NCBI GenBank assembly: GCA_019057735.1
Contig: JAHLWV010000031.1
Coordinates: forward strand, 1 to 15,268
Reading direction: 5' to 3'
Source: Promethearchaeota archaeon
GTDB taxonomy: Archaea; Asgardarchaeota; Lokiarchaeia; Sigynarchaeales; SOKP01
Length of the DNA stretch: 15,268 nt
In this document: positions 1 through 15,268 of the stretch, one piece after another
Layout: every line of letters starts with the position of its first letter
Position numbering within the stretch: position 1 is the first letter of the stretch
The notes under the pieces: model-generated
Databases searched by the model: none
What the model was told of the DNA's origin: nothing
The model's input: the letters and a program-made list of their open reading frames with translations, nothing else
Translations under genes and position numbers: made by a program

Positions 1-693
1 ATTTATTGTAAATTAAGTACCGGTAAACAAATTGTTATAGAAATACAACATTCAATGATTCTTGTTAAAGATTTAATACAACGTACAAAAGAATACAACG
101 AGAACAATTGTTTTGTGTTATGGGTATTCAACGGGAGTTCGTTTGAACGCTACCCTAAAATTGATGATAATGTAAGGATATTAGGTTTTGAAAAATGGTG
201 TCACTTACTATATCGTGGCCGGGTATATTACATTAATATGACTAAATCGGGTATCCATAGCCCAGTTTATCCGGCTCACTTTGCTAATTGTTACGAACTA
301 AAATATTCTAAATCGGGATTCCAGTTCTATCACAGGGCTTTATCTAAAAAAAGTTTTATACCCTCTTTTATCCCCTCACTAAAAATTAAAACATTTAAAA
401 ATATGGGATTTAACTTAGCTAGTTTTTATGACGATAACATGAGAAATTCATGTTTGGCCGAAATTACCCAATTTTTGAAAAACTATGGTGTCATTGAATC
501 AGAAGTAAAAAGAATAAAAAAAATGAGTCGAAATCAAAAACTACTTTACCTAATTATTGGAATCTATGGCGATAAGTATGGGTTAAATTTATTATTTAAT
601 ATATTAACTTATCTTAAAGTTTTGTCTAAAAAAGACTACCGCTATATGAGCGTTATTAATCGATACCTAATGAAAAAAGATAGCCAAAGATAA
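1..693 (+). CDS. CoiA-like nuclease, 3' part (5' end outside window)
   Basis: The reading frame is open from base 1 and continues upstream of the first ATG (base 55), so that ATG is probably internal and the gene starts outside the window. The first in-frame residues contain IEIQHS followed by LIQRT..Y and a VLW strand. This matches the conserved core of the competence protein CoiA nuclease domain (PD-(D/E)XK-like fold), where the E-x-Q pair supplies part of the metal site; the upstream catalytic acidic residue would lie off the edge. The remaining ~190 residues are basic, with aromatic-rich and helical stretches that I do not recognise. In bacteria CoiA acts during recombination of transformed DNA; its role in an archaeon is unknown. 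It converges on the methyltransferase gene with a 20-base gap. Family call fairly firm from the motif, function inferred. Confidence 0.7.
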   Translation: MYCKLSTGKQIVIEIQHSMILVKDLIQRTKEYNENNCFVLWVFNGSSFERYPKIDDNVRILGFEKWCHLLYRGRVYYINMTKSGIHSPVYPAHFANCYELKYSKSGFQFYHRALSKKSFIPSFIPSLKIKTFKNMGFNLASFYDDNMRNSCLAEITQFLKNYGVIESEVKRIKKMSRNQKLLYLIIGIYGDKYGLNLLFNILTYLKVLSKKDYRYMSVINRYLMKKDSQR

Positions 694-3833: not shown

Positions 3834-4703
3834 ATGTTTGTAAACAAAAAGATGGATATTTGGTCTCAACCATATTGGGAACACGTAATTAGGAACATCG
3901 GACCTATTACTTTTCTAGAACAAGAGCTAATCAGAACTTCACGCGTCGCAGTACTCGGAGTTGGCGGTTTAGGCGGTCCTTTAGCAGAGAACCTCGTGAG
4001 GGCAGGTTGTCAAAACTTAGTCATTTGCGACTTTGATGTATTCGACGAATCAAACTTAAACCGACAAATTTGCACTACTGACGATCTCGGTAAGAGAAAA
4101 ATCGATGTGGTAGAGGACTTTTTACAGAGGATCGATCCTGAAATAGAAGTCAGAAAATTTTTTAAAATAACCCAACAAAACATAGATGAAGTCTTTGAAG
4201 ATGTAAAAGTGATCGCTCTTACTTTGGACGATCCTGCTACTTCTATTTTTATAGCTAGGGAGGCTCGGAAACGAGGAATCCCCATGATTGAATCTTGGGG
4301 TGTGCCTTTCTTATTTACTTGGTGGTTTACTTCCGATAGCGTAGATTACGAGAGATGCTACAGTCTTGAAACGGAAAAGTTTGATTACTTTGAATTGTCT
4401 AACCTTAAAAAGGAGATCAACCTCGCAACCTACCAAGCATTATTGCCTAAAGTGTTTTCCATGCCAGGAGTCAGAGAAAAATACGACCGAGAGCCAGGAG
4501 CATTCGAAGAAATGATGGCGGGCAACATCGGAGCTCGATCGTTTGCACCGTTCGTAAGAATTACCGCTGATTTTCTTTCGGTAGACGTAATTTTCTCTGG
4601 AATACTGGACATAAAGCCAAAGAACTTAGCCCCTCACCTGAAAGGGTTCGATTACATCAACATGGAAGTTCAAGAAGCAAAGTTGATATCTAATAATTTT
4701 TAA
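3834..4703 (+). CDS. E1/ThiF/MoeB-like adenylyltransferase
   Basis: A 289-residue ThiF-family protein that would activate a C-terminal carboxylate, normally a ubiquitin-like or sulfur-carrier protein, by adenylation. The nucleotide-binding motif VLGVGGLGG is at residues 40-48. The ATP-site acidic strand CDFDVFDESNLNRQ is at 65-78, LGKRK with the conserved lysine at 85-89, and the second acidic motif LTLDDPATS at 129-137. Two features differ from MoeB/ThiF. The zinc-binding CxxC pairs are absent, and no cysteine occupies a clear transfer site; Cys175 in YERCYS is the nearest candidate. The second half (about 155-289) is unlike the standard family tail. No ubiquitin-like, E2, JAB or ThiS/MoaD gene is in the window. 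The start could also be Met7 (3852). It may adenylate a small protein or a non-protein substrate. Confidence 0.8.
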   Translation: MFVNKKMDIWSQPYWEHVIRNIGPITFLEQELIRTSRVAVLGVGGLGGPLAENLVRAGCQNLVICDFDVFDESNLNRQICTTDDLGKRKIDVVEDFLQRIDPEIEVRKFFKITQQNIDEVFEDVKVIALTLDDPATSIFIAREARKRGIPMIESWGVPFLFTWWFTSDSVDYERCYSLETEKFDYFELSNLKKEINLATYQALLPKVFSMPGVREKYDREPGAFEEMMAGNIGARSFAPFVRITADFLSVDVIFSGILDIKPKNLAPHLKGFDYINMEVQEAKLISNNF

Positions 4704-4860: not shown

Positions 4861-5232
4861 TTAAGCTTCGTTGTTAAGCTTAGATACTAGTTGATTTACT
4901 CGTTCTGCCACCGTCTCCAAAAGCTCGTTCTTTTCTTCTATTTCTTCTTTTAGTTGAGATTCCACTTTGGTTGGCGAAAAAGTTTGTTGTGTGTTTCTTA
5001 GGGTTTGCATTAATTGTTTAGTCTTCTTTTCCGCAAAGAAAAAGCCAAAATCCGTTATTTCTTCAACCATGCGACTTCGACATTGAAGTAACAAGTGCTT
5101 TAAGCCTTTTCCACTAATTTTTCCTTCAGTAAAATTTCTTATCGCAATCTTAAGCTCTTCTAATTCGTCATCATTGAAGATTATTTTTTCTACTACCTGC
5201 TCAAAGTTAGCTAATTCTTGACTCTTTTCCAT
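4861..5232 (-). CDS. Small helical/coiled-coil protein, last gene of the operon
   Basis: An unrecognised 123-residue charged protein, predicted almost entirely helical. Residues 1-80 form a helical domain with DDELEELKIAIRNF and a GKISGKGLKHLLLQC turn-helix. Residues about 88-121 form a heptad-patterned coiled coil (KVESQLKEEIEEKNELLE, then VAERVNQLVSKL). There is no membrane segment or signal peptide. Its ATG overlaps the stop of the 1257-aa gene by one base (TAATG), and a GGGGGAGG Shine-Dalgarno (5237-5244) sits 4 bases upstream. The two are therefore almost surely translationally coupled and likely partners at fixed ratio. A role as cytosolic adaptor or assembly factor for the HerA/VirB4-like protein is inferred from position only. 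Confidence 0.75.
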   Translation of the reverse strand: MEKSQELANFEQVVEKIIFNDDELEELKIAIRNFTEGKISGKGLKHLLLQCRSRMVEEITDFGFFFAEKKTKQLMQTLRNTQQTFSPTKVESQLKEEIEEKNELLETVAERVNQLVSKLNNEA

Positions 5233-8200
5233 TAAACCTCCCCCAAGTCACCCTCAATGTATTGTCTGAAACCATCGAATATCGTAGAGTACATTTCGAA
5301 TATATTTTCACAGGTTTCGGCTACATTGACCTGGTCGCTTACTTCTATCTTCTCACAAGAAGTTAAAAATTGCTTTAGATCATCTGCTGTAAACGGAAAC
5401 CCTTCGATTTTACCGAAATTTCCTATAAATTTGTTAATATCTTCTGAGGTTATTGCGTAATTCACGCTGTAATATCCTTTGTAAACGCTGTGTAAAAATT
5501 TAGGGAATAAATCCCTGCCAGTTTTTATCACTTTCTCGTATTTTTTTTGGTTTAAGTTTTTGTGCATGGAAAAATATTCGTAATATAGAATTGGAGCAAA
5601 ATTTTTAGAGAGGGCACTTCTTAGATTAATGGGATTGAGGGCCTCTGCTACAGGAGGTTGGGCAGATTCCAGTTCTATTGGTACGTATGTTATTATCGAA
5701 CTATCTCGGGAATCGTAATAGTCTTTTAAAACTCTTTGGTAGTGAGGTCCGACCGCAAAGGATGTTTGCATGGACTCCGAACCGCTTGCTCTTCGAGGGT
5801 GAGTTTCTATTAAGTATTGTTTGCTTACTAGAATACCAAAAACTTTGTCAATAATATCTTTCTCTCTCTTCTTTTCTTTGGTAATTTTTGCGATGTAAGG
5901 CTTTAACACTTCTTGAAGTTCTTCTCTCACTTTTTTTTTATAGAGATTGCCTATTTTATCAACCGCTTGGAGGTTGTTTAAAAATTTAATGATACCTTCT
6001 ATCAAGTCGCTATAACCGGCAAAGTCGCTTTCGAACAGAGTAGTTTGAGCTCTTTTCATGATTTTTTTCTCGGTTTTTTCTATATCGTAACCTTGATCTC
6101 CCATGTAGCTAATGATTTCCTGCCACGATAGAGTTTTAATTTGCTGTAATTCTTCGAAGTCAAGTTGCACAGGGAAAGATTGGTATATGTCCTCTCGTTT
6201 CACCACCGCTACATTTTTCTTCATCGCTCCGATGTATCTTGTCTGATAGCCTTCGTTCCTCCTACTACTATAGTAGCCTACTCCATGTAGATTCTCTAAA
6301 TTCATTTGTCCGTTGAGCACGGCCACATCTCTTTTATCGGATGTTCGAAAAGTTATGATATTATTGAAGTAATTAAACACATTAGGGTGTAAATACCTTA
6401 TTTGCGATGCAGAAATTAAAGTTCCAAAGCCTTTATCGAAAAATGGGGAAAGGAACTTATCAATCTTGCCGTATTGAATTTTCTTATCTAAGAAAAAACC
6501 GTCAAAAACTACATCAATATGAGGTATTACAATAAATTTTGGAGTATATGCTTCTCCAATTTTCAAGTAGTGAATCATTTTAGACAATACAACAAAAGCA
6601 AAATAGCACTGTTTGTCGTAGTCTTTTATATCTGAGAGATCGATAATCACCGTTTTGTCGTTAGTTATGAACTCGTGCGCTTGCGAAGAGTTTAGTGTTT
6701 GAGGTTGTTGACGCTGGATAAACGAAGATTCTTGGGGAGTAAACTCCTTAAAAAAAGCTAATAATGTTTCCGTGACCGAAGATTTCTCCCAGTCTCGTTG
6801 AGAAGTTAAGTCTAACACTAAAGTCGATACATCAATATCAGGATTTCGAAGTATAGTGTTTTTGAACATCTCGATGGTCCTTTCGTCTTTCTTAAAGCAC
6901 ATCGCGTAAGCGTCAAACATGTAGTCTAAATAAGCGGAATTATTTTTGTCGTAGGGTATCTCAGAGCGAAGGGGGTTAATCACGAATGTTTTTCCTAGTT
7001 TGTGATAGATAAACTGATTTTCGTAAATGGAGCCTTGAAATATTTTTATAATCTTCGACCAATTACCCGTAAAATCGAATACCACAGAAGAATGACCCGC
7101 TTTAACCAGCTCTACCACGATTTTCTGCGTAAGAAGTTCTCGGCTAGAGTTCGTCCCGTTCGTGATGAGTAAATTACGCACTTGGTTGAATAAAAAGCCT
7201 GCAGGGACCTCATTCTCTAAATATTCTGTATTAATTGTGGAGCCAACAGTAATCTCGTTTTTAAGTTGCAGGGGAGTGTTGAACTCTGCAGCTAACTGCG
7301 TTTCTACTCCTTTTTTAAATTGATTGGAAATCGTGGTTAAAAATTTTAAAGTTTTCCCTTGAAACAGCAAATAATTAAGATGCGTACCGTTCCTTCTGAA
7401 AAATTTGTTCTTAAGGGTTTCAAATATTAATCCTGATTCCAGTAAATTGTTTCTCAACGGTTTTATCATATAATTCATAAAATTATTCCCGAAAGCAGCT
7501 TTTAAAACAATGAATTGCCTTACTAACTGTCTTTCAATTGCATCTATATTTTCGTATGTGAGTAGGGGAGCGTTAGATACTACCGAAGTAGAGTAAGTAG
7601 CAATCGCGCTCCAGATACCCCCCTTTTGTCTGAGCCAACTGTCACGTTGTACAGGAATTTTTCTGCGTTTTAATAAGTAAAATCTCTCTCTTTCAGTTAA
7701 ATATTCAAATCCTTCCTCGTCGAATTTTTCGAAGTTTAAGGGCCCTAACTGGAAGGTAACAGTAAACGGCATCCCTTCTTTAATTAGAGATTCGTAAAAC
7801 TTATCGGGATTACAATACGGTGGCGGACTACAAAAATAGAGGTTTGCCATTTTAATCCCTCCGGTGGTTTTTCCTTCTATCTGGTAAAAAATGATTTCAG
7901 GAGTTTTTCTCGACTTGAAAAACTCAATATTATTAAAAGGATCAATTACCTTAATCTCCTTAGATCTGAAAAGTTTGCCTTTTGACAACTGAAAGAACAA
8001 TTCCTGCCACCACACTATTAATAAGAAAACGCTAATTCCGATATTGAGTAAAAACCTATAAATTAGAGGTAAATTGAAAAACAATAGCGATAAATCTAAT
8101 AATACTACTAACGCTACGATATAGCTAGCTTTTGCGATGGAAGCGCTTAACTTAGGACGCACAGTTTTACAAGTTATTCTTTCCGAATCGGACTCTATTG

Positions 8201-9005
8201 GAACATCTCGTTTTAAAACTGTACTCCGAAACGTCTCAATTAACTGATCCTCAGTCAGGGAGGATATTTTAAAATGGTGAAAGTTTGAAGTAATTCCCGT
8301 TTTTAGAGCAGTTGTGCTTAGCCGAAGCTCTTTTACTAACTTAGTTAACTTTGATTTATTGATCTTCCCGTTGATTTTATAATAGGTGGAAAATAAAATC
8401 ACAGTCTCAAAAGTCGAGTTTTTGTCGTAAGCTTTATTATTGGTTATCTGAAGCGGTTTGTGAATAACTTGAAAGGTATATGGAGTGTGATTTTTGTGTA
8501 ATCCTTTGATAAATGTAAGTAGATTTGCTGACACATTTTCGGCCATCACTCCAATTTTTAAAATACTAACGCCTGTAGTTATCATATCTCTGCGATTTGT
8601 ATAATATAACACAGACTTATCGTAGTCGGTCTGCCAGAATGTGAAATTTTGAAAGGGGTTAAACGCTCCAAACTCCAAAAAGTGAAGCAAAGTAAAGAAA
8701 TTTTTACGAAACACGAACACAAAACTTACTCCAACTATTACGGTTGTGCTAATTGATACCAAAAAATCCAGGGTTGTTAGCAATAGTGAAGCGAACAAGA
8801 CAAATTCAATTACCACTAACGAGATAGATTTTTTGAGCGTATCGATCCTATCTATATCCTTATAAGAAGGAATCGAGTTCCAGACGCTATCAAACGGGTC
8901 TTCGTCCGTTTTCTTATCGTTTTCTTTCCCACTTTCGTTTTTTTCTTTCCAATTCCTATTCTGAATATTGTCTCCATTTAAGAATTCTCCATATGATTTT
9001 ACCAA
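5232..9005 (-). CDS. Membrane HerA/VirB4-like protein with degenerate ATPase motifs
   Basis: A 1257-residue protein. A charged N-terminal tail precedes a TM hairpin at about 60-99; a soluble domain (about 125-285) is followed by a second TM hairpin (about 292-335). Another domain spans 345-480, and the ATPase fold covers about 590-910. The last is recognised by the HerA/VirB4 order. A strand and P-loop position at 612-624 lead into VVFDFTGNWS (641-650), the family's DxxGxW signature. The Walker B strand KFIVIPHIDVVF (823-834) is followed by GTLISASQ (861-868) and NNIITFRTSD (881-890). The P-loop reads TNGTNSSREL, lacking glycines and the GK[ST] lysine, and Walker B ends in PHID, not DE. ATP hydrolysis is therefore doubtful. 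Residues 1048-1096 resemble a winged helix; the tail is helical. The start is TTG, 8 bases after an AGGTGA that overlaps the upstream stop. Likely a DNA-transport or segregation scaffold. Confidence 0.7.
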   Translation of the reverse strand: MVKSYGEFLNGDNIQNRNWKEKNESGKENDKKTDEDPFDSVWNSIPSYKDIDRIDTLKKSISLVVIEFVLFASLLLTTLDFLVSISTTVIVGVSFVFVFRKNFFTLLHFLEFGAFNPFQNFTFWQTDYDKSVLYYTNRRDMITTGVSILKIGVMAENVSANLLTFIKGLHKNHTPYTFQVIHKPLQITNNKAYDKNSTFETVILFSTYYKINGKINKSKLTKLVKELRLSTTALKTGITSNFHHFKISSLTEDQLIETFRSTVLKRDVPIESDSERITCKTVRPKLSASIAKASYIVALVVLLDLSLLFFNLPLIYRFLLNIGISVFLLIVWWQELFFQLSKGKLFRSKEIKVIDPFNNIEFFKSRKTPEIIFYQIEGKTTGGIKMANLYFCSPPPYCNPDKFYESLIKEGMPFTVTFQLGPLNFEKFDEEGFEYLTERERFYLLKRRKIPVQRDSWLRQKGGIWSAIATYSTSVVSNAPLLTYENIDAIERQLVRQFIVLKAAFGNNFMNYMIKPLRNNLLESGLIFETLKNKFFRRNGTHLNYLLFQGKTLKFLTTISNQFKKGVETQLAAEFNTPLQLKNEITVGSTINTEYLENEVPAGFLFNQVRNLLITNGTNSSRELLTQKIVVELVKAGHSSVVFDFTGNWSKIIKIFQGSIYENQFIYHKLGKTFVINPLRSEIPYDKNNSAYLDYMFDAYAMCFKKDERTIEMFKNTILRNPDIDVSTLVLDLTSQRDWEKSSVTETLLAFFKEFTPQESSFIQRQQPQTLNSSQAHEFITNDKTVIIDLSDIKDYDKQCYFAFVVLSKMIHYLKIGEAYTPKFIVIPHIDVVFDGFFLDKKIQYGKIDKFLSPFFDKGFGTLISASQIRYLHPNVFNYFNNIITFRTSDKRDVAVLNGQMNLENLHGVGYYSSRRNEGYQTRYIGAMKKNVAVVKREDIYQSFPVQLDFEELQQIKTLSWQEIISYMGDQGYDIEKTEKKIMKRAQTTLFESDFAGYSDLIEGIIKFLNNLQAVDKIGNLYKKKVREELQEVLKPYIAKITKEKKREKDIIDKVFGILVSKQYLIETHPRRASGSESMQTSFAVGPHYQRVLKDYYDSRDSSIITYVPIELESAQPPVAEALNPINLRSALSKNFAPILYYEYFSMHKNLNQKKYEKVIKTGRDLFPKFLHSVYKGYYSVNYAITSEDINKFIGNFGKIEGFPFTADDLKQFLTSCEKIEVSDQVNVAETCENIFEMYSTIFDGFRQYIEGDLGEV

Positions 9006-9013
9006 TTTTTATT

Positions 9014-9868
9014 TCACCTTTTTCCGTAATACAACTTATTAATAAAAATTAAGACTATGATAACACCAAAACAAATAAGGGTCGTATTGCTAATAGACAT
9101 CGATAGAACACCATACATAAAAGATTCTACTAAAAGTATCGCCCCTATCATAGCAAATAAAATAATCAAGCTGAAGATCATTAGTTGACCAATATTATCC
9201 TTTGATTGGCGATACGAGATATTATCCTTTAAAGCTCCGGAGATTACAATCTTTCCTCTCGATTTTTGCTCTAAATTCTTCCTTACGGTTTTTAAGTGCA
9301 AAATCTTTTCGAAAGCGTTTTTATCGAATTGCTGATCGAGTTGTATTTGAAGGGCTTTTTCCTCGTCTTTAATCCTTTGCATTAATATCGGATTAAGCGC
9401 ATTTTCGCTTTTTCGCCTTTTAGATTGGCCACCTGAAAGAAATGAAAACATAGATACTGTACGGTTTCGGTTCAACATTTCGGAGTTAATATTTTCGTGT
9501 AAGTTTGGAACTTCTAGTTTTCGAAGCTCGTAATACGCTTCAATTACGCCCTTCACCTGTTCAAGATTTATCTCCCCTTGTCGTTTCAAAAATAAAAGCT
9601 CTATTTGAGACAAGTTTTGTATCATTTCGGGCTTGAACACCGCTACATTGAAATTAAGGGCAAAAATTTTATTTACGAGTTTCATATATTCAAAAATATT
9701 CTCGCCGGAACCTTTCTCCCTTGTTCGCATGCCTAATTTAATCCCAATTTCGTCAACTATGTTACTTACGAGTACAAAACTCACCACAGCAAGCTTTTTA
9801 TAGTTGCCTGTTTCCTTGCAGAGCTGGATCAGTCGTTTTAATTTTAAATCTAACAGTTGCTCGCTCAC
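9014..9868 (-). CDS. Helical protein with two C-terminal TM segments
   Basis: A 284-residue protein of unknown family. Residues 1-125 are a helical bundle (LKRLIQLCKETGNYKKLAVV, IFEYMKLVNKIFALNF, VIEAYYELRKLEV), faintly like a HEPN bundle but without an R-x4-6-H motif. Residues 126-225 are polar and charged, with a basic KRRKS patch near 150-154 and a helix around 160-200. Two TM helices, about 227-248 and 258-278, end the protein before a short basic tail (YYGKR), so the bulk is probably cytosolic. The start is GTG; its GTGA overlaps the stop of the preceding gene by 4 bases, with an AGGGGG Shine-Dalgarno 5 bases away. This coupling and the 8-base gap to the HerA/VirB4-like gene point to one membrane complex. 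Function not recognised. Confidence 0.75.
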   Translation of the reverse strand: MSEQLLDLKLKRLIQLCKETGNYKKLAVVSFVLVSNIVDEIGIKLGMRTREKGSGENIFEYMKLVNKIFALNFNVAVFKPEMIQNLSQIELLFLKRQGEINLEQVKGVIEAYYELRKLEVPNLHENINSEMLNRNRTVSMFSFLSGGQSKRRKSENALNPILMQRIKDEEKALQIQLDQQFDKNAFEKILHLKTVRKNLEQKSRGKIVISGALKDNISYRQSKDNIGQLMIFSLIILFAMIGAILLVESFMYGVLSMSISNTTLICFGVIIVLIFINKLYYGKR

Positions 9869-10617
9869 TTTCGCCCCCTCGTAGATAAAAAATCCTCGTA
9901 AATTTGCTCTACTTCATTCTTGGGATCGTTTTTCCGCTTCATTTGAGACGATTCAATTTCCAATTCTTCTTGAGCGATTAATTTATCTAAATCGAACGGT
10001 TCTTTCACATTTTCAATGTATGATTTTACAACTTCTGCTGGAGCATATCGTGCTTTTTCGAATGTATTTATTACCGATAAATTGAACAAAGCGTAAGGAA
10101 ATGTGCATCCAAAGGAAGCTACTTGAAACCAATATCCTGGACCAACCGAATAGGAAAGCGTGAGACTTAATTCGCTATCGTAATAAACCATAAAGGGATA
10201 ATAGAGATCATTCGGTAATAAAAAAAACAACGGAAATATCAACACGAAAAATCCGATTAAAACAATTAACGAAAGCGTGATAAAACTAAACCTCTTTACT
10301 TTAAGCATGTTGTCACCCTTTTCCAAATCGTGAAAAAGCGCAGAATATGCTGAAAGGAAGACTGCCACGATAAGAACGATCACAATGATAATGGGCATAG
10401 TAGCATTTTGGGGCTTATAAGATTCGTTAAACTGATTCGCTTCTGTAAATGGAGTGCTCCACCCGAACAAAGTGTTGTAAATCCACAAGATAATGGTCTC
10501 TTCGTTGCTGTTAAGCACTCCTTCGAGGTAATACCAATCTAAAAACACCGACGCGAAGCTAAATATGAGGCCAATTAAAAAAATTATTTTATATCCTGAT
10601 TTTATATTTATCGACAT
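9865..10617 (-). CDS. Four-TM membrane protein, first gene of the operon
   Basis: A 250-residue integral membrane protein with four predicted TM helices at about 9-27, 74-95, 110-134 and 161-181. The loop between TM1 and TM2 (28-73) is long, aromatic and asparagine-rich, likely extracellular; TM1 ends in the polar VFLDWYYLEG. After TM4 comes a hydrophilic cytosolic tail of ~65 residues (KARYAPAEVVKSY onward, acidic then basic), which could dock partners. No enzyme motif is seen and the family is not recognised. It could form the membrane channel or platform of the complex. The ATG at 10615-10617 is followed downstream by the 4-base overlapping GTG gene. A TATA box 53-61 bases upstream makes this the likely first cistron. 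No clear Shine-Dalgarno. Confidence 0.75.
   Translation of the reverse strand: MSINIKSGYKIIFLIGLIFSFASVFLDWYYLEGVLNSNEETIILWIYNTLFGWSTPFTEANQFNESYKPQNATMPIIIVIVLIVAVFLSAYSALFHDLEKGDNMLKVKRFSFITLSLIVLIGFFVLIFPLFFLLPNDLYYPFMVYYDSELSLTLSYSVGPGYWFQVASFGCTFPYALFNLSVINTFEKARYAPAEVVKSYIENVKEPFDLDKLIAQEELEIESSQMKRKNDPKNEVEQIYEDFLSTRGRK
9869..9879 (-). promoter_or_regulatory. Shine-Dalgarno deciding the GTG start
   Basis: AGGGGG on the minus strand lies 5 bases before the GTG at 9866-9868. It supports GTG as the true start of the 284-aa protein, with its GTGA overlapping the upstream TGA. Equivalent sites are AGGTGA at 9014-9019 (TTG start of the 1257-aa gene) and GGGGGAGG at 5237-5244 (ATG of the 123-aa gene). 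Confidence 0.6.
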
Positions 10618-10669
10618 GTTACATTAAACTCTATTCATTTTCACTTGTAGAGCCTTAAGTCGACGTGAG

Positions 10670-10686
10670 TTTATAAAGAAAAAAAA
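10670..10686 (-). promoter_or_regulatory. Terminator of the HhH gene abutting the operon promoter
   Basis: Directly after the TAA of the HhH gene the minus strand reads eight T, C, three T, an oligo-T terminator, merging into TTTATAAA (10670-10677 region), a good archaeal TATA box 53-61 bases ahead of the four-TM gene. The HhH gene thus seems to end here and the four-gene operon to start from its own promoter, with a leader of about 25-30 bases. Read-through remains possible. Confidence 0.5.
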
Positions 10687-12531
10687 TTAGGTGTCATCTA
10701 AAAACGATGAATATTTGCTGTTGTATTTTGTTGTCAAATCACTAACGGATTCAACTTTAACTTGCTCAAGTTCAAATAAATTTTTGAATTCTGGCTCACT
10801 CCGTTTTTCTTCTACGCTGTGTTTTAATGTGTTTGTTTCACTTTGCTCTATTACTCCAAATTTAACATCTTTACCTAAACACTCGTACCCGAATTGAGTC
10901 AACAGTTCATCTGTGAGTTCTTCCTTAAAATCTAAAAAATCTATCTCGCTAAATTCCAATTTTTGTAAGTAGTAAGGAGTTTTGAATTGAGTAGCTAATC
11001 GTTTTTTATTCCGATAAAAATTGAAATAGAAAAACATTAATAAAGAGATGTAAATCCCTATGACAGCAAGTCCTATGGTATTAAATAATCGCAATAGGAA
11101 ATAAAGTTCTGCGAAATAAATAATTAAAAGCACCACTGAGTATCCGAAGATTGGAATCGAGGCATATTTTACGCTTGCGCTAAGTGTCTCCTCCGCCATT
11201 CTATGCTCTTTAATTAAGTTTGTCTTTTTCGTTCTCTTTTCGATCATCCGATATTTTTTTTCTAAGAACTTGACCAAAGGCGCTAAGTCGGCTCTGGAAA
11301 CGGCGTGAAGATTGGTGCTTCTTTGGTATGGGAAGGCGAGCGATTTTTCCATGCTCCTGGGAGGGTTGTAACATAACAAGATAGGTTCAATATATACCTT
11401 GTATTGAGTAGTTCCCGAAAGAAATACCACACTTCTGTTTCCGAACCCTTTTTCAAAAGAAAGGCTAATTTGCAAGTATTTTTGGAAAAATGTGAGAATA
11501 TTTTGGTTGGTTGCTATATCTTTGTACATCGAATCTCTGACTTGCAATAAACTTTTAGTAATTTGCGCTATATCGTAGTAAGCTCCAAGATCAGTTTTGC
11601 TCAAATAAGATTTTAATTCTATCTTACTCTCGTCAACTAACACCGTTCCTTCCATATCGAACCGTTTCACAGGAAACAGGAACAAAATTCTAAGGTCATC
11701 TGAAGCTTTCACTAACTTACACCCGAGATAATCGAGGTCAGAAGTAAATTGTTTTAACGATTCTAACGAGCGAGGGATTTCGTAGCACCCAGCATCCTTA
11801 AAAGTGTCGGCAATTTGTTGGTGTACGATACTTTCGAAAGTACTATCGCTAGAATATTCGAAATTGATATCTTTTGGTTCGGCTGGAGTAGATTCGACTT
11901 TTTCTTCTTCGTATTCACTTACATGCTCTATCCCCGGTTGTGTACCCAATTCAATATTTTCAGGAATCTGAATCGTTTCTGGTTCAATAGCAATAATTTT
12001 TTCATCTTCTTCTTCTTCTTTTTCCTCGACAGTATTGCTAGCCTTTTTTACCCTTTCTGATATTGGGGGATAAGACGCTGTCAATTTCGAATAACTATAT
12101 TTATCAGAGAACCATTTTGGATCAGTTTGCAACTGGTCGAACTCTTCTTCCCCTTCCGTTTTGGGTTCCTCTCTGGTTTCCTGGGCCTCGTCTACGATTA
12201 CTTGTTCCACTTCGTATTGTTCGATTGGGTTTTGCGTAAATTCAACCTTATTTTCCCCTTGAATTTGAATAGATTTGCTTACAAAATCTTCTTTTTGAGA
12301 ACTTTCCAAATGATTTATAGCTGCGATAATAATTTTCGTAGCAGAAGCTAACCCAATTCCTGGAGTTTCTGAAAGTTTTTCGGGCGTCATGTCAGCGATC
12401 TGTCTTATCGATACAATTTTTACGTTGTATAATTTTTCTGCGGTGGTTGGGCCAACTCCTTTAATTTCAGTTAGATTATCCTGGGAAAGCTCGCTATTTT
12501 TTTGTTCTTGGGTTCCATACACATCTGTCAT
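10687..12531 (-). CDS. Membrane-anchored helix-hairpin-helix protein
   Basis: A 614-residue protein. Residues 20-76 hold two helix-hairpin-helix motifs (LTEIKGVGPTTAEKL and LSETPGIGLASATKI) matching the N-terminal DNA-binding module of RadA/Rad51 recombinases. Residues 100-225 form a glutamate-rich, disordered linker. Residues 230-450 are a folded domain I do not recognise, with LRILFLFPVKRF and VVFLSGTTQYKVYIEPILL strands. Two TM helices at about 456-478 and 483-505 form a hairpin followed by a basic RNKKR, and the C-terminal ~105 residues are soluble and charged. Both ends should lie in the cytosol, so the HhH module can tether DNA to the membrane. It lies just upstream of the HerA/VirB4-like operon on the same strand but has its own terminator. 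The ATG at 12529-12531 is supported by a TATA box ~34 bases upstream. No RadA ATPase domain follows. Confidence 0.75.
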   Translation of the reverse strand: MTDVYGTQEQKNSELSQDNLTEIKGVGPTTAEKLYNVKIVSIRQIADMTPEKLSETPGIGLASATKIIIAAINHLESSQKEDFVSKSIQIQGENKVEFTQNPIEQYEVEQVIVDEAQETREEPKTEGEEEFDQLQTDPKWFSDKYSYSKLTASYPPISERVKKASNTVEEKEEEEDEKIIAIEPETIQIPENIELGTQPGIEHVSEYEEEKVESTPAEPKDINFEYSSDSTFESIVHQQIADTFKDAGCYEIPRSLESLKQFTSDLDYLGCKLVKASDDLRILFLFPVKRFDMEGTVLVDESKIELKSYLSKTDLGAYYDIAQITKSLLQVRDSMYKDIATNQNILTFFQKYLQISLSFEKGFGNRSVVFLSGTTQYKVYIEPILLCYNPPRSMEKSLAFPYQRSTNLHAVSRADLAPLVKFLEKKYRMIEKRTKKTNLIKEHRMAEETLSASVKYASIPIFGYSVVLLIIYFAELYFLLRLFNTIGLAVIGIYISLLMFFYFNFYRNKKRLATQFKTPYYLQKLEFSEIDFLDFKEELTDELLTQFGYECLGKDVKFGVIEQSETNTLKHSVEEKRSEPEFKNLFELEQVKVESVSDLTTKYNSKYSSFLDDT

Positions 12532-12785: not shown

Positions 12786-15268
12786 ATGTCCCTTACTAAC
12801 TACACCAACTCAAAGAAATCGCTAGTCGAAGAAGAAACGGAGGAAGAAATATTTGAGTACGTCCAAGACGAGCGCATCCTTCGAGTATTATTCGAGCAAA
12901 AGATATTCAAGCTTCGACAAATTCAGAAAGAGGCGATCCAAAAGGGATTATTTTTTCGAAAGTCGTTCCTAGTATGCGCGCCTTCGGGAAGTGGTAAAAC
13001 TCTTATAGGAGAAATTAGCGCCGTAAACAATGTGTTTCAAAAGTTTGGCAAATCCATTTATTTAGTCCCCTATAAAGCTCTCGCAACTGAAAAATATGTC
13101 CATTTTAAAAAAGCTTACGAGCGATTCGGTGTTAAAACCGAGCTATCAATAGGTGATTACGATGTGGACGATTCGCGGCTAGCTAAGGCGGATATAATTG
13201 TTACAACATACGAGAAAATGGATTCAATCTTGCGAAATTTTAGCGAAAAAGAATGGATTTTTGATATTTCGACTATTATCATTGACGAAATTCACATTTT
13301 AGGAGAATCGAGCGGTTCTCGAGGTCCACGGTTGGAGTCTCTGATAGTACGATTAAACGAGTTTTTATCTCAACCACAATTAATTGGGCTTTCCGCCACT
13401 ATAAAAAATCCTGAATTTTTCAACGAGTGGCTTTCTTCTCTTGGAAACGATACTACGCTAATATTTTCGGAAGCTCGACCTGTACCTTTACATTATAGAA
13501 TAGAAATAACTCAAAATAAAAATTCCACTATAAAAAAAATAATAAAGGCCACCTTAAACGACAGAGGACAAATTTTAGTGTTTCTAAATCGAAGGAAATC
13601 CACTCAACAGACTGCTCAAAACCTTAAAAATTTGGTGAAAACTCAATTAACAGAAACCGAATTAAAAGCGTGTAAAAAGGTAGAAGAGAAACTCAACAAA
13701 ATAAAAGGAAGACACGCTGAGTTAAGGAAAGCGGTTAAATGTGGAATAGGGTTTCATCACGCTGGACTGCTTCCAAAGGAGCGAAAACTTATAGAAGACG
13801 CATACAAAAAGCATATAATTAAAGTAATATGTTGCACCACTACATTAAGTGCCGGTGTTAATGTGCCTGCGCGAGTAGTCATCGTAAAAGATTTCAAACG
13901 ATATGTGACTTCAGGCCACAACATAAAAAACTTTTCGGGTTATTACGAGAACGGAGATGGGTTTAGCTACTTCATGCCATTCTCTGCTAATTCAGTGTTC
14001 CAAATGCTCGGTCGAGCGGGAAGACCGGGATTTGATTCGGAAGGTTTTGGCTATTTATTGGCTAATAACGTCGACGAACGGGATTGGATCGAAGATCATT
14101 ACTTCCAGAACGCTGTTCCATTAGAAACTTATATTCCTAAATACAACGATCTAACTTCGGGACTCAACAAGCTTAACACTTTAAAAGAACAAGTGCTTCT
14201 ACGGATTTACGAGGAGAAAAATATCACCTTAGATAAATTAAAAGAATTCTTCCAAAAAACTTATTTTTGGTACGGTATCAAACAAAACAAATCAAAAAAT
14301 CGACAGATTCCCATCGATCAGCTCTTGATGATTAAAGAAATTACCCCCATTAACATCTTGAAACTGCACTCCGACCCGAAAAAGGTAGAAAGTTTGTCAA
14401 ATAATCACCACCAAATTAAGATCACCAAGTTGACGAAGTCAAATCTATCGGGCTACATAAAAACGGATTTTGGAGTGTTTTTTACGGAATTCGATATTGA
14501 CGTTGGGATACGATGCTCGTGTGGGTTTGAAAATGGGATATCCAACAATTACTCAGACGATCAATTCTCTTTTGAATTCTGCGACCACATCACCGCACTT
14601 TTACTACACCTAATCGGTATCCCCGACCAGAACTTCCAGAAATACGTCCAAGACATTGTTCCTAAGTCGGTAAAAAACCAATATGTTCTCAATTACTTGT
14701 TCGAAAAAGGGTTAATCATTAAACGGGACAATGGCACCATTAAATGTTCGCAATTCGGAAAACTCATTATCAGGTTGTATCTTTACCCCGTTTCAGGTGT
14801 TTTAATACGATACAAACTCGAAAATGTTGCGCTTGAAACCTATCAAGACGTCGTAAAAGAAGCATACGAGGTGCTAAAAGCAGAATCAAAAGTTCGAAAC
14901 TACAAAATGCTCCAACCCCTTATGGAATGGTGTGACGAAGAGACAATTGACGATATTTTGGAGCGACACAAAATAATGGCAGGCGATCTTTATACCATTA
15001 AGGACAACTTAGAACGAATTATCACATTTATTGGGATTATTGCAGTTCATTTAAGCGAGTCCGATCCAGATATCGCTGAAGCTATGGTTAAAGTAGCAGA
15101 AATGTCCGAAACCCTTAAAATTCGAGTGCATTACGGGATTAGCGAAGAATTATTTGATTTAGTTTTAAGATTAGACAATGTGGCAAGAGCGAGAGCGAGG
15201 ATCTTGTATAATGCAGGATACCATACTGCTACTAAGGTAAAAAAAGAAAATCCTTATGTACTTAATCG
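12786..15268 (+). CDS. Hel308/Ski2-like helicase with SWIM zinc motif (3' end cut)
   Basis: An open frame of 827 codons running off the right edge. It is an SF2 DExH helicase of the Ski2/Hel308 group, a 3'-5' ATP-driven unwinding enzyme. The Q-like motif is FKLRQIQKEAI (41-51), Walker A APSGSGKT (65-72), motif II DEIH (167-170), motif III SAT (203-205) and motif IV region ILVFLNRR (263-270). FHHAGLLP (323-330), TTTLSAGVNVPAR (351-363) and motif VI QMLGRAGRPG (406-415) complete the core, all intact. A winged-helix half starts near 463 and resumes near 629. Between them an insertion carries C577-x-C579 and C599-x-H601, the SWIM zinc signature. The C-terminus has a Hel308-like ratchet region and ISEELFDLV.. 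then RARARILYNAG, the domain-5 HhH. It is divergent from the HhH membrane protein. A true Hel308 orthologue elsewhere in the genome would make this a paralogue. Confidence 0.85.
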   Translation, partial: MSLTNYTNSKKSLVEEETEEEIFEYVQDERILRVLFEQKIFKLRQIQKEAIQKGLFFRKSFLVCAPSGSGKTLIGEISAVNNVFQKFGKSIYLVPYKALATEKYVHFKKAYERFGVKTELSIGDYDVDDSRLAKADIIVTTYEKMDSILRNFSEKEWIFDISTIIIDEIHILGESSGSRGPRLESLIVRLNEFLSQPQLIGLSATIKNPEFFNEWLSSLGNDTTLIFSEARPVPLHYRIEITQNKNSTIKKIIKATLNDRGQILVFLNRRKSTQQTAQNLKNLVKTQLTETELKACKKVEEKLNKIKGRHAELRKAVKCGIGFHHAGLLPKERKLIEDAYKKHIIKVICCTTTLSAGVNVPARVVIVKDFKRYVTSGHNIKNFSGYYENGDGFSYFMPFSANSVFQMLGRAGRPGFDSEGFGYLLANNVDERDWIEDHYFQNAVPLETYIPKYNDLTSGLNKLNTLKEQVLLRIYEEKNITLDKLKEFFQKTYFWYGIKQNKSKNRQIPIDQLLMIKEITPINILKLHSDPKKVESLSNNHHQIKITKLTKSNLSGYIKTDFGVFFTEFDIDVGIRCSCGFENGISNNYSDDQFSFEFCDHITALLLHLIGIPDQNFQKYVQDIVPKSVKNQYVLNYLFEKGLIIKRDNGTIKCSQFGKLIIRLYLYPVSGVLIRYKLENVALETYQDVVKEAYEVLKAESKVRNYKMLQPLMEWCDEETIDDILERHKIMAGDLYTIKDNLERIITFIGIIAVHLSESDPDIAEAMVKVAEMSETLKIRVHYGISEELFDLVLRLDNVARARARILYNAGYHTATKVKKENPYVLN

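Follow-up and report, generated by a model that had tools for sequence, protein, structure and literature searches.

The VirB4/HerA fold is known from the type IV secretion ATPase VirB4 (TrwK of R388), from HerA of the HerA-NurA system and from the crenarchaeal Ced system, whose CedB and CedD are two separate, membrane-anchored ATPases of VirB4/HerA type. In Saccharolobus, CedB and CedD each have half of an N-terminal domain, and jointly these halves correspond to a single such domain of VirB4 (PMC11868833); Ted loci are also accompanied by HerA and rad50 (PMC9905601). Here we analyse a window (the whole stretch of DNA under study, 15,268 nucleotides, from a Promethearchaeota archaeon) which holds a protein of this known fold within an undescribed gene set; the openly accessible literature gave no description of the set. 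Asgard archaea are the closest known relatives of eukaryotes, and in the literature searched no route of DNA uptake, exchange or recombination was found for them.

RESULTS

A five-gene block beside a Hel308-type helicase

The block consists of five genes, here called A to E, and their coordinates, minus-strand orientation, lengths and overlaps were verified in the window sequence. An earlier note, made from the sequence alone, gave a minus-strand run in which B and C overlap by 4 nt, C and D are separated by 8 nt and D and E overlap by 1 nt, and this is correct. A divergent Hel308-type helicase gene (12786..15266, plus strand, open at the window end; NCBIfam 3.5e-97) is the linked neighbour on the side of A. 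Compared with the two nearest relatives (loci L001 and L002), A to E are under purifying selection (dN/dS 0.05-0.27), C being the most constrained (0.05-0.06). In Pfam and NCBIfam only the HhH domain of A was recognised, and B, C, D and E had no significant match.

Protein A (10687..12531) is laid out as a RadA-type HhH domain (residues ~19-80; HHH_5 4e-12 in Pfam, RadA models 1e-7 in NCBIfam), an acidic low-confidence linker (81-228), an alpha/beta core (~230-435), a TM hairpin (~440-515) and C-terminal helices beyond. Only HhH families were matched, the RecA core domain being absent, and PDB profile matches were restricted to residues ~16-104 or to the HhH-like range of L32e; the core itself had no PDB match at E <= 0.001. 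For this core a nucleotidyltransferase fold was considered from Foldseek hits to CdnE, poly(A) polymerase, OAS2 and TUT7 (E 0.04-0.2, probability 0.12-0.28), and it is not claimed because these scores are poor and all four are missing from the VIA-align rows shown.

By hydropathy, B (9865..10617) is a small multi-span membrane protein with about four TM segments followed by a charged cytoplasmic C-terminus, and C (9014..9868) is a helical protein with a TM hairpin at its C-terminus. E (4861..5232), which overlaps the stop of D, is small, soluble and coiled-coil-like. From the hairpins, A, C and D are predicted to expose their soluble parts on the same side of the membrane. For B and C, which the earlier note proposed to compare with Ced and type IV secretion parts, no such kinship was recognised: their profiles had no match among solved structures (PDB) at E <= 1, CedA/CedA1 counterparts were not found at the block, and the VirB6/TrbL family PF04610 was found in none of 10 genomes, an insensitive test that is silent also in Sulfolobus acidocaldarius, which has CedA. 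In small neighbours, T4SS_pilin matches in 3 of 10 were at chance level (E 0.28 in L044, 6.9 in L042 and 7.3 in L047); the ORFs with these matches encode small two-TM proteins near D.

Several other features were seen around the block. A 5'-open ORF at window 1-693 (plus strand) has a CoiA_nuc match (9.8e-9), by which it is assigned a competence-type nuclease domain, and is conserved in L001, L002 and L062. A ThiF/E1-like protein (3834-4703, plus strand), convergent with E, is retained at several Loki-type loci. The Hel308 of the window contains an inserted CxC...CxH pattern resembling a SWIM zinc finger. In G001, G002, G125, G157 and G111 the window-type Hel308 is the sole Hel308-like match above 120 bits, and a second such match is present in G079, G085, G181 and G197.

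D has a VirB4-type fold and a duplicated membrane module

In the predicted model, D (5232..9005, 1257 aa) carries a VirB4-type N-terminal domain and a RecA-like domain and is membrane-associated by its own TM segments. It comprises two copies of a TM hairpin plus beta module (residues ~50-290 and ~286-560), a RecA-like domain of ATPase fold (~560-960) and a helical or winged-helix-like C-terminal part; the two hairpins appear by hydropathy, and the model places helices there. The two modules are mutually homologous (hhalign 99.5%, E 4.3e-22), both match the separate N-terminal protein of a split D form (99.7%), and module 2 matches the N-terminus of a ~780-aa D form (96.4%). N199, a separate TM protein adjoining D in the ~780-aa form, showed no detectable relation to the modules by hhalign. 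By sequence profile D matches HerA, and VirB4 matches it across both the N-terminal and the ATPase parts, over more residues than HerA does; D was not among the Pfam DUF87 matches.

The motor motifs are lost across the D family

The degenerate Walker A of D (7140..7163, minus strand; residues 615-622, TNGTNSSR) has Arg622 at the lysine position, and in the model the P-loop position is a short loop (616-618) between strand 611-615 and helix 619-635. In the degenerate Walker B (6513..6536, minus strand; residues 824-831, FIVIPHID), Pro828 replaces Asp. Among 70 distinct rows from 70 loci, GxxxxGK[ST] never occurs: the lysine position is R in 62, V in 4, L in 2, Q in 1 and K in 1, the single K standing in the context GFDGMKE (L041), and at the Walker B Asp P is found in 47, D in 19, E in 3 and N in 1. 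In a larger, redundant set the Walker A site has Gly in 157/159 and Arg in 149/153. Because Walker A is lost, and in 47 of the 70 rows also the Walker B Asp, D is by its sequence not a working translocase; the translocase-like fold named in the earlier note is present. That Gly and Arg are so widely conserved, with low dN/dS, argues for a retained function other than ordinary ATP hydrolysis.

Distribution and gene order in Asgard archaea

Protein searches, which depend on shared words, returned 135 relatives of D and 145 of A, and the named sources among the 120 D matches listed were Loki-, Hermod-, Hod-, Thor- or Promethearchaeota. Whole-genome searches covered Asgard archaea only (227 genomes). 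With D itself as query at least 68 genomes matched, 43 of them at E < 1e-100, and 68 is a lower bound because in most genomes two candidates were scored. With a profile built from the ATPase part of D, 108 genomes matched at E <= 1e-6, of which the weakest matches may be other HerA-type ATPases, and 86 at E <= 1e-30. C was found in 41 and relatives of B in 40 of the 227 genomes. Full-length D (E < 1e-100) is present in 40 of the 41 C genomes, the exception being G148, where C lies 36 bases from a contig end, and in 38 of the 40 B genomes (exceptions G148 and, with a weak match, G089); C is missing from three D genomes (G113, G132 and G149).

Gene order was determined for the 49 D ORFs that reach 900 aa or more in gene-called loci, a subset of the D places found, in which A was recognised by a profile of its core only. 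Directly upstream of D lies C in 34 of the 46 loci with enough flank, with B beyond C in 29 of 41. In loci with this C-B pair, A comes next in all 25 that have enough flank, a divergent hel308 is present in 20 of 24, and E immediately follows D in 26 of 30. Recurring synteny, by which the earlier note proposed to judge the block, is therefore strong. That note also took separation of the genes in relatives as an argument against the grouping. Among 43 C loci D is adjacent in 36, one is unjudgeable, and in six (G119, G105, G100, G097 and two in G106) D stands apart, so strict linkage fails; D is found elsewhere in these genomes, and thus A-B-C and D are separable with D still retained.

At one of these loci (L101, G100) A-B-C is followed by a 67-aa D-like stub, full D being on another contig, and in G143 the hel308-A-B-C-D block occurs in two copies (L034 and L060), with E seen in L034. 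Most of the 12 D loci lacking C have a D paralogue or a D of another type. Paralogues of D standing apart from A, B and C were seen in L044, L066, L035, L036, L039, L042 and L073; in L044 and L066 a HerA-like ATPase whose Walker A is intact comes after the paralogue, and other paralogue loci have TPR or M50-like proteins. Two candidate ATPase partners of D were rejected: the intact HerA-like ATPase has no match at E <= 1e-6 in the nearest relatives G001 and G002, and the protein downstream of E (635-657 aa) lacks Walker A and, in the one tested, matches Pfam DUF998.

Recombination genes recur beside distant D forms

Genes for Hel308, for a RadA paralogue that has diverged, for an XPG/FEN1-like nuclease and for an XPD- or Hef-like helicase are found repeatedly beside relatives of D. 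A DNA-handling context, as first suspected, is thus supported by a wider neighbourhood rich in recombination genes. A Hel308-like gene is found in 18 of 27 distant D loci, and several of the nine without are short contigs. The ~780-aa form occurs in ten loci with the order f250, f155, RadA, zinc protein, f207, XPD-like helicase, N199, f101, D, Hel308 and M550, after which come RecA-fold, membrane and XPG-like genes; short overlaps are frequent. All ten have D next to Hel308 and XPD next to N199, and individual small genes are absent in some. Among loci that reach far enough, 7 of 8 have RadA upstream and 5 of 5 have XPG downstream. Pfam matches in one such locus (L053) were Rad51 (1.5e-55), DEAD_2/Helicase_C_2 and XPG_I (1.6e-19), with none for D, N199 or M550.

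Beyond hel308, as seen from A, Loki-type genomes carry a Hef-like helicase (NF010337, 560 bits against a cut-off of 610; G002), a zinc protein, a TFIIB-like zinc protein, an M50-like membrane protein and RadB-like, RadA (313 bits, cut-off 259) and FEN1-like (281, cut-off 352) genes, the scores being those of G002 proteins. In G001, G002, G143 and G157 the RadA, RadB-like, FEN1-like and Hef-like genes fall inside some 30 kb, XPG and RadB-like genes being seen where the stretch examined extended far enough. The distance between RadA and D is 19-30 kb in these four genomes; in G111 it is 160 kb, and in G125 the vicinity of D lacks a cluster RadA. The same neighbourhood in G002 (L095) encodes a 987-aa protein with a prenyltransferase-toroid match (6429-9392; 1.2e-13), and at split-D loci a similar place is taken by an M28-peptidase membrane protein; a TFIIB-type zinc-ribbon protein (L095 4932-6203; 2.2e-4) is, by eye, kept in G001, G143 and G157.

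A RadA tree was built from 34 rows, 14 cluster copies and 20 others, leaving out the G143 cluster copy, which is split in two ORFs. The 17 housekeeping RadAs form one clade (support 96/94), and the cluster RadAs form three long-branched groups which all fall outside it, with the G111 copy in the Loki group; the long branches meet in the tree, and the three groups may or may not share one origin. By hhalign no signal was obtained for A as a homologue of the membrane proteins M550/M618, which flank Hel308 in other Asgard groups, nor for B or C as homologues of small membrane proteins there. Since no homologues of A, B and C could be detected in the distant clusters, what the groups have in common is D and the recombination genes only.

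DISCUSSION

What the analysis shows of the block is its gene order and co-occurrence, the fold, duplication and motif loss of D, and the neighbouring genes. An ATPase-dead VirB4-type core, a tethered HhH domain and recurrent recombination genes together point to a motorless membrane dock for a dedicated recombination pathway, an explanation we prefer while judging it no better than evenly poised. In such a dock, the D core with its two membrane-hairpin modules and RecA-like domain would perform no usual ATP hydrolysis, and would most likely form a static ring or scaffold at the inner membrane face with A, B, C and E. The RadA-type HhH of A, on its long flexible tether, may catch DNA or a recombinase, and the recombination set, with Hel308 next door and the RadA paralogue, XPG/FEN1-like nuclease and Hef-/XPD-like helicase in the wider neighbourhood, would be docked there. 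We infer that recombination would then take place at the membrane and that the helicases, not D, would supply the motor work.

Motif loss across the D family together with purifying selection, the VirB4 match over both parts of D, its profile match to HerA, the synteny and co-occurrence of the block, the recombination genes beside distant D forms in separate Asgard groups and the position of cluster RadAs outside the housekeeping clade are all consistent with a dock. However, neighbourhood alone can mislead: nine of 27 distant loci have no Hel308 in the stretch, RadA is distant or not near D in G111 and G125, D-paralogue loci without A, B and C have other neighbours including an intact HerA-like ATPase, and A, B and C themselves do not extend to the distant clusters. 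In a broader form, which we put forward only tentatively, the block would be part of an ancient Asgard-wide membrane-bound homologous-recombination machine that has no described counterpart, with the ATPase-dead VirB4 ring as a DNA gate without its own motor; the ring would receive DNA at the membrane and pass it to its own RadA paralogue, while Hel308, the XPG-type nuclease and the second helicase would serve as hands and motors.

Rather unlikely, and somewhat less so than the readings that follow, is a motorless import conduit derived from Ced or type IV secretion, in which D and its partners would form a channel admitting DNA to the cell, and the helicases would pull or strip it and hand it over to the RadA paralogue for recombination. 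The VirB4 fold with TM hairpins in D, the description of CedB and CedD as sharing one VirB4-like N-terminal domain beside the twice-repeated module in the single chain of D, the separate TM protein N199 next to the ~780-aa D, the HerA and rad50 genes reported at Ted loci and the conserved CoiA-like ORF nearby are consistent with import. Against it stand the absence of VirB6/TrbL in the 10 genomes by that insensitive test, the chance-level pilin matches, the lack of a detectable relation between N199 and the D modules, and the fact that CedB/CedD act as ATPases, which D by its sequence cannot. DNA import may also be a sub-case of the dock, with VirB4 ancestry speaking for it and no recognised channel or pilin, by weak tests, against it.

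It is improbable that the membrane complex has another cargo or role, such as protein secretion, chromosome segregation or defence, with the recombination neighbours being historical. HerA-fold proteins serve in defence too, and D paralogues adjoin an intact HerA-like ATPase and an M50-like protein; but the link with recombination genes recurs in separate Asgard groups with different gene orders. A defence system was rejected, as PADLOC gave no match for A to D at E <= 0.01 and only 0.0048 for protein E, and so was a viral or mobile origin, with no relatives in 48 pattern-matched IMG/VR stretches. That D is an active DNA translocase with a still working, unusual Arg-type nucleotide site is highly improbable and was rejected on motif loss, for although the fold, the conserved Gly and Arg and, in six distant forms, D-D at Walker B are retained, GxxxxGK[ST] is found in none of the 70 rows and Pro replaces the Walker B Asp in most, the window included.

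If the membrane dock is real, a conserved and dedicated RadA lineage linked with a membrane protein descended from conjugation machinery would offer something concrete to test as a means of DNA exchange or membrane-coupled repair for Asgard archaea, and a striking case of a VirB4-type pump retained phylum-wide after loss of its motor.

Comparison with described systems

HerA matches D mainly over the ATPase part, and separate DUF87 proteins of about 500-530 aa exist in most of 10 genomes checked. A shares the N-terminal HhH domain of RadA/Rad51 and lacks their RecA core. With VirB4, D shares the fold without Walker A/B, and unlike VirB4 it has the membrane-hairpin module twice; the block is chromosomal and lies with recombination genes, without recognised type IV secretion partners. 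Because intact Walker motifs, one of the traits that define VirB4, are absent from D, we do not class the block as a member of the type IV secretion systems. CedB and CedD divide between two ATPases what D holds in one chain without ATPase motifs. The duplication of the module in D resembles CedB plus CedD, a likeness we draw as a parallel and not as a homology.
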